Source: an uncultured Flavobacteriales bacterium (GTDB taxonomy: Bacteria; Bacteroidota; Bacteroidia; Flavobacteriales_D; CAJJDF01). From it: DNA of 33,123 bases. Of the stretch, positions 28,417-32,866 are shown piece by piece; position 1 is the first letter of the stretch; each line of letters begins with the position of its first letter. The DNA is taken from positions 1 through 33,123 of the forward strand of contig CAJJDF010000014.1 in assembly GCA_905182785.1 (NCBI GenBank), in the 5' to 3' direction. The translations under genes were made by a program, and so were the position numbers. The notes under the pieces were generated by a model. It was given only the letters and a program-made list of their open reading frames with translations. It did not search any database and was not told where the DNA came from.

Positions 28417-29187
28417 TTAAGCACTCACTGCACTCTTTTTAACTGCTAATGCATAAATAACTAACCCAAATCCAATTTTATTAATTGCATCAGCTATGTT
28501 ATATAATACATCCATGTTTAATCCAAGGTCTCCCATGAAAGAATACCATTGTCCATCTGCTGTACCTACTAAATATCCTAAAGGATAAATAATCCATCCA
28601 ACTAATACGAACCAGCAAAGAACTTTATGCGCAGCTAATACATCACCTCCTGCTTCTTTTGCTAATTTAGCAGCTCCACCTAGCCATATTTCGTAAACGA
28701 TTGCAAAATATGCTGCTGCAGAAAAGAATCCCCAAAGTGCTGCACTACCAGTATAAACAGCTTCTCCTAAATAACCTGTCACTAACATAATAACTGAAAG
28801 TACAATCATTTTAGTCAGTAACGACTTTTTAGCTCCTGCTACTTTTAAAATCAAATAAAATTCAACACACATTAATGGAACTGTTAGGATCCAATCTACA
28901 TAACGAAAGAAAACGGGCGAATCGCCTGTAACTTTTCCTGCTTCGTCAAGCACAACACTTGCCGACCAGTAATCTCTCATGTACATATAATGTACTGCTG
29001 CGATAAATGTAATTAAACCTGAAACTAAGACAGAAGTTCTCCATTTCTTGTCAAATTGGTTTAAAGATAAAAAGAAGAAGGCAGCAGCTGCCATCATTGC
29101 CATACACCCAATAAAGAATGTAAATCCTACGTAATCATTGGCATACATAGTGTTTGAACTCAATAAGCTCATTGTTAAATTTTCCAT
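28417..29187 (-). CDS. proteorhodopsin, light-driven proton pump (green-type)
   Basis: A 256-residue seven-helix retinal protein that pumps protons outward when lit, giving a proton gradient. The helix-C motif RYVDWILTVPLMCVE holds the proton acceptor D98, T102 and donor E109: the 'DTE' set of proton pumps, not the NDQ sodium or NTQ chloride sets. M106 sits at the spectral-tuning site (105 in SAR86 proteorhodopsin), which predicts green absorption. H66 in VHYMYMRD partners the acceptor, and the retinal lysine is K237 in INKIGFG. G153 aligns with the carotenoid-fenestration position of xanthorhodopsin. The loop between helices B and C is about 10 residues longer than in SAR86. Retinal-synthesis genes (blh, crt) are not in the window. 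It is monocistronic with its own terminator. Confidence 0.97.
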   Translation of the reverse strand: MENLTMSLLSSNTMYANDYVGFTFFIGCMAMMAAAAFFFLSLNQFDKKWRTSVLVSGLITFIAAVHYMYMRDYWSASVVLDEAGKVTGDSPVFFRYVDWILTVPLMCVEFYLILKVAGAKKSLLTKMIVLSVIMLVTGYLGEAVYTGSAALWGFFSAAAYFAIVYEIWLGGAAKLAKEAGGDVLAAHKVLCWFVLVGWIIYPLGYLVGTADGQWYSFMGDLGLNMDVLYNIADAINKIGFGLVIYALAVKKSAVSA

Positions 29188-29408: not shown

Positions 29409-29858
29409 TCACTCCTTCCTCAAAGCTTCCCAAACCAAATTAGACTCAAATCCTTTTTGAATTAAAAAAGCAGCTATTTTACCCTTCTTTTTAAATTCAT
29501 TTTCTTCTTCCACCTCTCTCTCTTTTCGTTCTAGCCAGTAGTGTAAAGTTTCAAAATATTCGGTTTCATCAATTTCTTGCATTCCTTTTTTAATGCAATA
29601 ATCAGAAATGTGTTTTTGTTTCAAATGAGATTTTATCTTCACTCTCCCCCATCTTTTTATTCTAAATTTTCCTGAGACAAAAGCTTGAGCAAAACGCTCT
29701 TCATTCAAAAAATCATCTTGAATAAGTGCGATCAAAACTTGATCTACTTCGTTTTTGTACAATCCTAATTTATATAATTTATCCACCACCTCCTTATGAC
29801 TACGCTCTTGGTAGGCACAATATTTCTTCAGCTTTTCGGTAGCGATTGATGCGGTCAT
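29409..29858 (-). CDS. recX: regulatory protein RecX
   Basis: A 149-residue cytosolic protein that binds RecA filaments and usually inhibits recombinase and coprotease activity. It is all-helical with RecX-type three-helix repeats: YCAYQERSHKEVVDKLYKLG, ALIQDDFLNEERFAQAFVSGKFRIKRWGRVKIKSHLKQKHIS, and a degenerate third repeat near the C-terminus (KKGKIAAFLIQKGFESNLVWEALR). recA is not in the window. The gene diverges from the DegT-family aminotransferase gene across 94 nt, and the 221-nt gap downstream towards proteorhodopsin contains no gene. Confidence 0.9.
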   Translation of the reverse strand: MTASIATEKLKKYCAYQERSHKEVVDKLYKLGLYKNEVDQVLIALIQDDFLNEERFAQAFVSGKFRIKRWGRVKIKSHLKQKHISDYCIKKGMQEIDETEYFETLHYWLERKEREVEEENEFKKKGKIAAFLIQKGFESNLVWEALRKE

Positions 29859-29952
29859 TTAAATGAAGTTAAATTTTATTAAATAATGGTTCTTTTACAT
29901 TTTTCATTAAAAATAAATTCTTACTTTTAAGTACTAAACTTTACAATAATAA

Positions 29953-31164
29953 ATGATTCCATTTTCACCACCAAGAATAGACCAAAAAATAATTGATGAA
30001 GTTGTTGACACCCTAAAATCGGGATGGATAACAACTGGGCCAAAAACCTTGAAATTTGAAAACAACTTAACCGAATATTGTGGCAACAAAGCTACGGTTT
30101 GTGTAAGTGCTGCAACTCCTGGTATTTCTCTACTATTGAGCTGGCTAGGGATAGGCGAAGGAGATGAAGTTATCATCCCCTCTTACACCTATTGCGCTAC
30201 AGGAAATGTGGTAGTTCACAGTGGAGCCAAATTGATAATGGTAGATGTTAATGAAGAGGATTTTAATATCAATATTCAAAAAATAAAAGAAGCCGTTACT
30301 GCCAAAACAAAAGTAATAATGCCAGTAGATATTGGAGGTTTTCCTTGCGACTATGACGAAATATTTGATTTTATAAATAGTCCAGCCATAAAATCTCAGT
30401 ATTCTCCATCCAATTCAATTCAAGAAAAAATGGGAAGAATTGCTGTGATTTCAGATTCTGCTCACAGTATTGGAGCTCGCTACAAAGGCAAAAAATCAGG
30501 AGCCATTGCCGATATCTCTATCTTTTCTTTTCATGCCGTAAAAAATCTTTCTACAGCCGAAGGGGGTGCTATTGCACTTAACTTACCCCCTCCTTTTGAT
30601 AACGAAGAAGTGAGAAAAAAACTAAAAACCATGACACTTCATGGACAAAGTAAAGATGCTTTTAGTAAAATGCAAGTAGGCGCTTGGAAATATGATGTAA
30701 TAGAGTCGGGATTCAAATGCAACATGACAGACATACAAGCTTCAATGGGATTAGTAGAACTCGCTAGATACGGAGAAAACCTTGCCAGAAGAAAAGAAAT
30801 AATGGAGGCTTACCACAAAGGGTTTGAAAACTTAGAATGGGCAAAAGTTCCTGTATTTGAAAACAAAGATAAAACGGGTTCTTTCCACTTGTATTTGTTT
30901 AGAATAAACAACATCACAGAAGAGCAGAGAGACGAAATTATTCGAGAAATCTCTAAATATGAAGTTGCAGTAAACGTGCATTATATGCCAATCCCTATGC
31001 TTACTGCTTTCAAGAAAAACTTTGATATCAAGGACTTTCCGCAGACTTTCAAAAACTATGCTTGTGAAATAACTTTACCTGTTTATTTCACCTTGACAGA
31101 CGAACAAGTGCAAACCGTAATTGAAACGGTTAAAAAATCTGTAACTACTGTTTTAAATAAATAA
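29953..31164 (+). CDS. DegT/DnrJ/EryC1/StrS family PLP-dependent aminotransferase
   Basis: A 403-residue fold-type I aminotransferase of the sugar-aminotransferase group, which makes amino sugars for LPS, capsule or glycoprotein. The N-terminus IPFSPPRIDQKIIDEVVDTLKSGWITTGP is typical. PLP contacts are D168 in VISDSAHSIGARYKGKKSG, and the internal aldimine lysine is K197 in FSFHAVKNLSTAEGG. The substrate cannot be chosen from sequence: 4-amino-4-deoxy or 3-amino sugars are both possible, and there are no sugar-nucleotide genes next to it. It is probably monocistronic, followed by a 79-nt gap. Confidence 0.9.
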   Translation: MIPFSPPRIDQKIIDEVVDTLKSGWITTGPKTLKFENNLTEYCGNKATVCVSAATPGISLLLSWLGIGEGDEVIIPSYTYCATGNVVVHSGAKLIMVDVNEEDFNINIQKIKEAVTAKTKVIMPVDIGGFPCDYDEIFDFINSPAIKSQYSPSNSIQEKMGRIAVISDSAHSIGARYKGKKSGAIADISIFSFHAVKNLSTAEGGAIALNLPPPFDNEEVRKKLKTMTLHGQSKDAFSKMQVGAWKYDVIESGFKCNMTDIQASMGLVELARYGENLARRKEIMEAYHKGFENLEWAKVPVFENKDKTGSFHLYLFRINNITEEQRDEIIREISKYEVAVNVHYMPIPMLTAFKKNFDIKDFPQTFKNYACEITLPVYFTLTDEQVQTVIETVKKSVTTVLNK

Positions 31165-31243
31165 ACGACCACTTTGGCAGTAAATTCCAAATTCTAAAAA
31201 AACCTTCTGACTTTATACTCTTTCAGAAAATAAACAATAAATT

Positions 31244-32866
31244 ATGAAATTATATATCCTATTTATAACTTTTATAGTTCTAATTTCAAATCAAGGGTTT
31301 TCTCAAAAAAATGATGTTTCAGAATTTAAACAAAATCATGTAAACTGGCATTTGAAAAATATTAGCAGCTCAGTAATGGGAACTAATACTCAAAAAGCTT
31401 ATGACGAAATCATTATAAATAAAACCTCGAAGAAGAAAATAATAGTAGCTGTTATTGATGCTGGTGTTGATATTTACCACGAAGATTTGAAAGAAAACAT
31501 CTGGACCAATACTAATGAGATAAAAGGAAACGGAATAGATGACGATAAAAACGGATACATTGATGACGTTCACGGATGGAATTTTCTTGGGAACTCGAAA
31601 GGAGAAAATATTGGCAGAGCAACTTTAGAAAAAACAAGATTATTAAGAGAATTAACTGTAAAATATGGAAGCGGAGTTGAGTTTTTAATTAATGACAAAA
31701 GCAAAGCAGAAAGTGCTTTATACAAAAAACTAAAAGCCGAAATTGACGCAGAGCTTAAAGAAGTAAATGAAATGCTTCTAAACATACAAGCAATCAAAGA
31801 AAATATTAAAAATACTTACGCTTACCTTTCTCAACTATCTGGACAACCAATTAATTCACATGAAGATGTGAAAAATTTGAACCCTGCAGACAAACAGCAA
31901 AAGAAAATAAGAAGAAAGCTAATCTTATACTCCAAAATGGGGTTGACAAAAAAAGCAATGGAGGATTATTACAATCAGCTAAAAGACCAAAAAGAAGCCA
32001 ACTTGAATGTTAATTTTAATCCTAGAAAAGATATTATTGGAGATGATTTATCAAACTTGGCTGACAATAATTATGGAAATCCTAATGTGATTGGACCTGA
32101 TGCTTTTCACGGAACATTTTGTGCTGGAATAATTGGCGCAAGCATCAATAACAAAAAAGGAATAAATGGTGTAGCCAATAATGTATTAATTATGCCAATA
32201 AGAGCAGTTCCTAATGGAGACGAATACGACAAAGATGTGGCGCTTGCAATTAGGTATGCAGTCGATAATGGCGCACAGGTAATAAACATGAGTTTTGGAA
32301 AATCTTATTCTGCCAACAAAGAATTAGTAGATGATGCTTTTGCTTATGCAGAAAAAAATGACGTTTTATTAGTGCAAGCCGCAGGAAACTCTAACGAAAA
32401 CATTGATATCAAACCCAATTTTCCTTCTGACTCTTTGAATAACGGGAGAAAAGTAGCCAATCACATTTGTGTGGGCGCTTCTACTATATCAACAAAGAAA
32501 AGATTGCCAGCTGGATTTTCTAACTATGGAAACAGAACGGTAGATATTTTTGCCCCTGGATTAGATATTGTTTCCACTACTATTGAAAGCCTTTACGAAA
32601 TCTCGCAAGGAACTAGTTTTTCTGCCCCAGTTGTTTCTGGAGTTGCAGCACTTCTTTGGAGTTATTATCCAGAATTAACTGCATTGCAGGTAAAAGAAAT
32701 AATAATGAAATCGGCTACTCCTTTAGGAAGAAAAAGAGTAAGAATCCCCGGAGATAAAAAGAAAACAAGATTCAGAGAATTATCTGTGAGTGATGGAGTG
32801 GTGAATACTTACAATGCTTTTATTATGGCAGAAGAAATGACTAACAAAGAAAATAATGAAAAATAA
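31244..32866 (+). CDS. exported subtilisin-like serine protease (S8 family)
   Basis: A 540-residue secreted peptidase with a signal peptide (1-20, ending QGFS-Q). The catalytic triad is D72 in AVIDAGVDIYH, H289 in FHGTFCAGIIGA and S458 in GTSFSAPVVSG; N381 in AAGNS is the oxyanion-hole residue. The D-to-H segment is about 217 residues, far longer than in subtilisin, and includes a helical, Lys/Glu-rich insert (about 125-250, probable coiled coil). There is a Ca-like DDDKNGYIDD stretch at 99-108. I see no T9SS sorting domain and no C-terminal extension, so it is likely periplasmic or exported by another route. The next gene starts 11 nt before its stop, so the two are coupled. Confidence 0.92.
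   Translation: MKLYILFITFIVLISNQGFSQKNDVSEFKQNHVNWHLKNISSSVMGTNTQKAYDEIIINKTSKKKIIVAVIDAGVDIYHEDLKENIWTNTNEIKGNGIDDDKNGYIDDVHGWNFLGNSKGENIGRATLEKTRLLRELTVKYGSGVEFLINDKSKAESALYKKLKAEIDAELKEVNEMLLNIQAIKENIKNTYAYLSQLSGQPINSHEDVKNLNPADKQQKKIRRKLILYSKMGLTKKAMEDYYNQLKDQKEANLNVNFNPRKDIIGDDLSNLADNNYGNPNVIGPDAFHGTFCAGIIGASINNKKGINGVANNVLIMPIRAVPNGDEYDKDVALAIRYAVDNGAQVINMSFGKSYSANKELVDDAFAYAEKNDVLLVQAAGNSNENIDIKPNFPSDSLNNGRKVANHICVGASTISTKKRLPAGFSNYGNRTVDIFAPGLDIVSTTIESLYEISQGTSFSAPVVSGVAALLWSYYPELTALQVKEIIMKSATPLGRKRVRIPGDKKKTRFRELSVSDGVVNTYNAFIMAEEMTNKENNEK

Follow-up and report, generated by a model that had tools for sequence, protein, structure and literature searches.

A green-absorbing proteorhodopsin with a fenestration glycine and a likely zeaxanthin antenna in an uncultured flavobacterial lineage

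The proteorhodopsin gene and its neighbourhood

The window, the whole stretch of 33,123 nucleotides analysed here, carries a proteorhodopsin (PR) gene on the reverse strand at positions 28417 to 29187. The open reading frame starts with ATG, has zero internal stops and encodes a protein of 256 amino acids that matches the Bac_rhodopsin domain of Pfam with an E value of 1.3e-40. It is the sole gene of this family found in the 2.32-Mb genome, the gene content of which was assessed by searches gene family by gene family. A promoter scan at the gene gave a signal no higher than in shuffles, and no terminator-like site was found immediately 3′ of it. Neighbouring genes are recX (29409 to 29858, reverse strand; Pfam RecX), which marks the place of the rhodopsin in the genome, and a gene for a DegT/DnrJ/EryC1 aminotransferase (degT; 29953 to 31164, forward strand).

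The retinal-binding (Schiff-base) lysine is K237, which lies inside the conserved NKIGFG motif and is invariant. The DTE motif consists of the proton acceptor D98, T102 and the proton donor E109, and M106 occupies the position of residue 105 in GPR, at which L or M tunes PRs to green light (PMC4831467); the DTE motif and M106 are identical in 82/82 nearest relatives. The first-pass annotation had the coordinates and the residues D98, T102, E109 and M106 right, and its proposal of a green-absorbing proton pump agrees with the motif, the tuning residue, the Pfam domain and the placement among PRs. Judged by its sequence, the gene product belongs to the PR clade of Bacteroidota and is predicted to absorb green light and to pump protons outward. 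Its B-C loop region (28919 to 28966, reverse strand) is extended by about 10 residues compared to most close relatives; a longer loop (25 to 28 residues versus 18) was also observed in 5 others of the 82, including Crocinitomicaceae and Polaribacter metagenome-assembled genomes (MAGs). The AlphaFold model of the protein is only of moderate confidence, with a mean pLDDT of 73.8.

The fenestration glycine and the helix-F positions

In a MAFFT alignment with reference sequences taken from PDB chains, G153 of helix E (codon GGA, 28729 to 28731, reverse strand) falls into one column with G156 of xanthorhodopsin (XR), G153 of Kin4B8 and a glycine each in GR and NM-R1, whereas the SAR86 green PR and PsPR have F in this column. 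The alignment thus reproduces the earlier assignment of G153 to XR G156 and to the phenylalanine of SAR86 PR, and a bulky residue at the fenestration site, named beforehand as the finding that would speak against an antenna, was not seen there. A carotenoid site is reported to be recognised first of all by this glycine and next by a tyrosine in helix F, and exchange of G153 in Kin4B8 for a bulky residue prevented carotenoid binding (PMC12308411).

The 82 relatives were drawn from genome contigs and the genus and comprise nearest relatives only, with more distant PRs outside the sample. Within this set, W152, G153, S156, Y205 and T209 are present in every sequence. Since glycine is found in 82/82 while the neighbouring positions 150, 151, 154 and 155 vary, G153 is a fixed trait of the nearest PR group and not a chance occurrence. 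The weight given to the glycine as a noteworthy feature of this particular protein was therefore overstated.

Xanthorhodopsins have W, G and S at the same places of helix E (WGxxS), and this XR-like WGF-S motif, together with a B-C loop that exceeds the length found in most relatives, could be taken to place the protein among the xanthorhodopsins and not the proteorhodopsins. We give this reading practically no credence: the window protein has only 31 to 34% identity to XR, Kin4B8 and GR, compared to 43% to SAR86 PR and 73% to NM-R1, and it branches inside the Bacteroidota PRs. Membership in the xanthorhodopsin family is ruled out by the identities and the tree.

Three helix-F residues have counterparts with a known role in the carotenoid antenna. 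Y205 (28573 to 28575, reverse strand) is the equivalent of Y204 in Kin4B8 and Y207 in XR, the role of which is described in PMC12308411; it is weakly diagnostic for an antenna, since GPR has this tyrosine too. T209 (28561 to 28563, reverse strand) is the equivalent of S208 in Kin4B8 and of a threonine in KR1, and the exchange S208A in Kin4B8 nearly abolished zeaxanthin binding (PMC12308411). A210 (28558 to 28560, reverse strand) corresponds to Y209 of Kin4B8, in which the exchange Y209F lowered energy transfer from ~40% to ~18% (PMC12308411). Both T209 and A210 lie in the stretches of the AlphaFold model with a pLDDT below 50 (residues 208 to 212 and 214 to 216). The non-polar A210 speaks against an antenna, because the tyrosine of Kin4B8 raises transfer efficiency and KR1 has an aspartate at this position; but NM-R1, with T and P at the two positions, was nevertheless deposited as zeaxanthin bound. 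Position 210 varies freely among the relatives (D, P, T, A, E or S). In Kin4B8, N188 and Y191 contact ring B of the carotenoid; the window protein has V189 and W192 instead, which likewise speaks against an antenna, but ring B is judged less important (PMC12308411).

Pigment genes and the proposed antenna

The genome contains both the zeaxanthin genes, crtZ included, and the blh gene for which the first-pass annotation had suggested a search. One contig (C50) carries crtI, crtB, a short open reading frame, idi, crtZ and the gene for a CarR-type lycopene cyclase (crtY) in a single cluster; its CrtZ belongs to PF04116 and has clustered histidine motifs. The blh gene, which scored above the curated cut-off, is located on another contig (C46) and is unlinked to the rhodopsin. 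With crtZ and a cyclase among the cluster genes, zeaxanthin is the product to be expected from the genes alone.

The final pigment might, however, not be zeaxanthin, since CrtI (L004 8968-10467) reached 731 bits, above the cut-off of 640 bits, with NF058655, the model of a bifunctional phytoene/3,4-desaturase. Furthermore, crtY is cut by the end of contig C50, and therefore, further carotenoid genes could follow unseen. Both observations would fit a pump with a different antenna carotenoid in place of zeaxanthin, such as a xanthophyll that is 3,4-desaturated or has undergone further modification. We consider this quite unlikely, because neither cruF nor a ketolase was found in the genome and the sole FA_desaturase match, a protein of 367 amino acids, has acyl-desaturase-like histidine boxes (judged by eye) and is not a CrtW-like desaturase, while crtZ and the cyclase predict zeaxanthin.

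Another explanation is that the protein is an ordinary green PR whose proton pumping in the cell relies on retinal only, with a glycine inherited as a trait of the group and a site that is carotenoid free in vivo. Indeed, a glycine that is invariant among relatives gives no independent signal by its presence, and the non-polar residue at position 210 points in the same direction. On the other hand, crtZ and blh are both in the genome, and the close relatives NM-R1 and KR1 (PMC12308411) bind zeaxanthin. The genus offers a further argument against retinal alone: two of the three other genomes have a rhodopsin (78 to 79% identity), a blh-type domain and crtZ, whereas the third (G003; 90% complete) is without rhodopsin and blh and also without crtZ, but orthologs of both MurF-Alr and degT are present in it. 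With four genomes in the genus and six in the family, this pattern of co-absence carries no statistical weight. Taken together, a PR that works with retinal alone appears unlikely.

In sum, the sequence data make it likely that the gene encodes a green PR with an exposed retinal ring at G153 and a zeaxanthin antenna, its retinal coming from the unlinked blh. In our model, retinal would be supplied by the product of blh, and the lack of a side chain at G153, which is predicted to face helix F, would leave the retinal ring exposed. An exposed ring would in turn allow a 3-hydroxylated carotenoid to lie on the outer face of the protein. This carotenoid, for which zeaxanthin from the crtI-crtB-crtZ-crtY cluster is the most likely candidate, may be held near T209 and Y205 and may pass the excitation energy of blue light to retinal. 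We infer carotenoid binding and energy transfer by the window protein from G153, Y205 and T209, from crtZ and blh, and from the relatives NM-R1 and KR1, all of which lend support to the antenna that had been proposed from the glycine.

The genus-mates have a gene for a fusion protein of 671 to 699 amino acids (L090 298-2313; L091 and L080), which combines an FAD-type lycopene cyclase (PF05834) with Blh (PF15461) and adjoins their proteorhodopsin gene in divergent orientation. No mention of a PF05834-PF15461 fusion was found in the literature in a non-exhaustive search.

Origin of the gene and comparison with known rhodopsins

In the tree, the window rhodopsin groups (support 99/93) with PRs from a set of Flavobacteriaceae MAGs, to which it has 88% identity, while the PRs of the genus-mates are found elsewhere. 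A tree in which the window rhodopsin was constrained to the genus-mates was rejected (AU test, P = 1.6e-5). The rest of the genome, in contrast, follows the genus: the neighbouring, vertically inherited degT is 75 to 79% identical to the genes of the genus-mates and 64% to that of a family-mate, with best matches of 27 to 33% in the Flavobacteriaceae MAGs, and MurF-Alr is 63 to 66% identical to the genus-mates versus ~42% (Alr part) to the Flavobacteriaceae MAGs. The gene order recX-degT-S8 (29409 to 32866), of which recX is likewise vertically inherited, is kept in the genus and the family, and the rhodopsins of the genus-mates lie on other contigs than recX-degT-S8. Hence, it is the rhodopsin and not the contig that looks foreign, and horizontal transfer of the gene, with a Flavobacteriaceae lineage as the donor, is probable. 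The degT identities and the conserved order make it unlikely that the odd rhodopsin phylogeny stems from misbinning of the window contig. Flavobacterial-type PRs were also seen in two MAGs labelled Rhodobacteraceae and Rhizobium (L010 and L031); these records are more likely mislabelled or misbinned than transfers.

In 76 of the 82 loci of the relatives, blh adjoins the rhodopsin gene as detected by HMM (73 by tblastn, all divergent and upstream). The window rhodopsin is without an adjoining blh, and the blh of the genome is only ~31 to 57% identical to the rhodopsin-side blh of the relatives; blh was, therefore, not obviously cotransferred with the rhodopsin. The evidence for transfer suggests that pumps of the antenna type are able to move from one family to another without the partner that makes their retinal. 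A more far-reaching scenario is rather unlikely as a whole: the gene for an antenna-type PR would have moved alone between Flavobacteriales families and replaced the rhodopsin of the genus in a recipient with blh and crtZ, whether these were there before or were gained separately; the foreign pump would dock to the xanthophyll of the recipient, and pump and pigment would be kept or lost as a unit, as the sister genome lacking rhodopsin, blh and crtZ may indicate.

The window protein extends the range of proton pumps with a likely antenna to an uncultured flavobacterial lineage. All of the nearest proteorhodopsins of Bacteroidota have the glycine; should this be true of the clade as a whole, marine and freshwater Flavobacteriia would harvest blue light through xanthophylls as a rule and not as an exception.

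The nearest solved structure, both by sequence (PDB 9jov and 9jou; E ~1e-101) and by fold (rank 1; TMt 0.84), is that of NM-R1, of which 9jou was deposited as the zeaxanthin-bound form. NM-R1 is identical to the window protein at 166 of 226 aligned positions (73%), belongs to the same PR clade and shares the LWG motif, the helix-F residues Y and T, the DTE motif and M at the tuning position. It differs in a B-C loop that is 10 residues shorter, in a P at position 210 where the window protein has A, and in another short loop ahead of helix G. For KR1, likewise the PR of a flavobacterium (Dokdonia eikasta), binding of lutein and zeaxanthin was reported along with energy transfer (PMC12308411). 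At the antenna positions, which the comparison covered, KR1 has the same Y and T in helix F, but Kin4B8 positions 205 and 209 are M and D in KR1 and L and A in the window protein.

The xanthorhodopsins are more distant. Kin4B8 (PDB 8i2z and 7ytb) has the fenestration glycine G153, Y204 and a hydroxyl residue at 208 in common with the window protein but belongs to the other family (31% identity), and its Y209, N188 and Y191 are not kept. The xanthorhodopsin of Salinibacter ruber (PDB 3ddl) shares the WGF-S motif of helix E, G156, Y207 and an alanine at the 209 equivalent; however, it is 31% identical, uses a 4-ketocarotenoid and has a hydrophobic M at the 208 equivalent. SAR86 GPR is similar in its DTE proton pump motif and its proteorhodopsin fold but carries F at the fenestration site in place of G and has 43% identity. 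With NM-R1 (9jou) and KR1, PRs of Flavobacteriia with a zeaxanthin antenna are already known, and the placement of the window protein as an ordinary member of these recently described antenna-type PRs is well supported.
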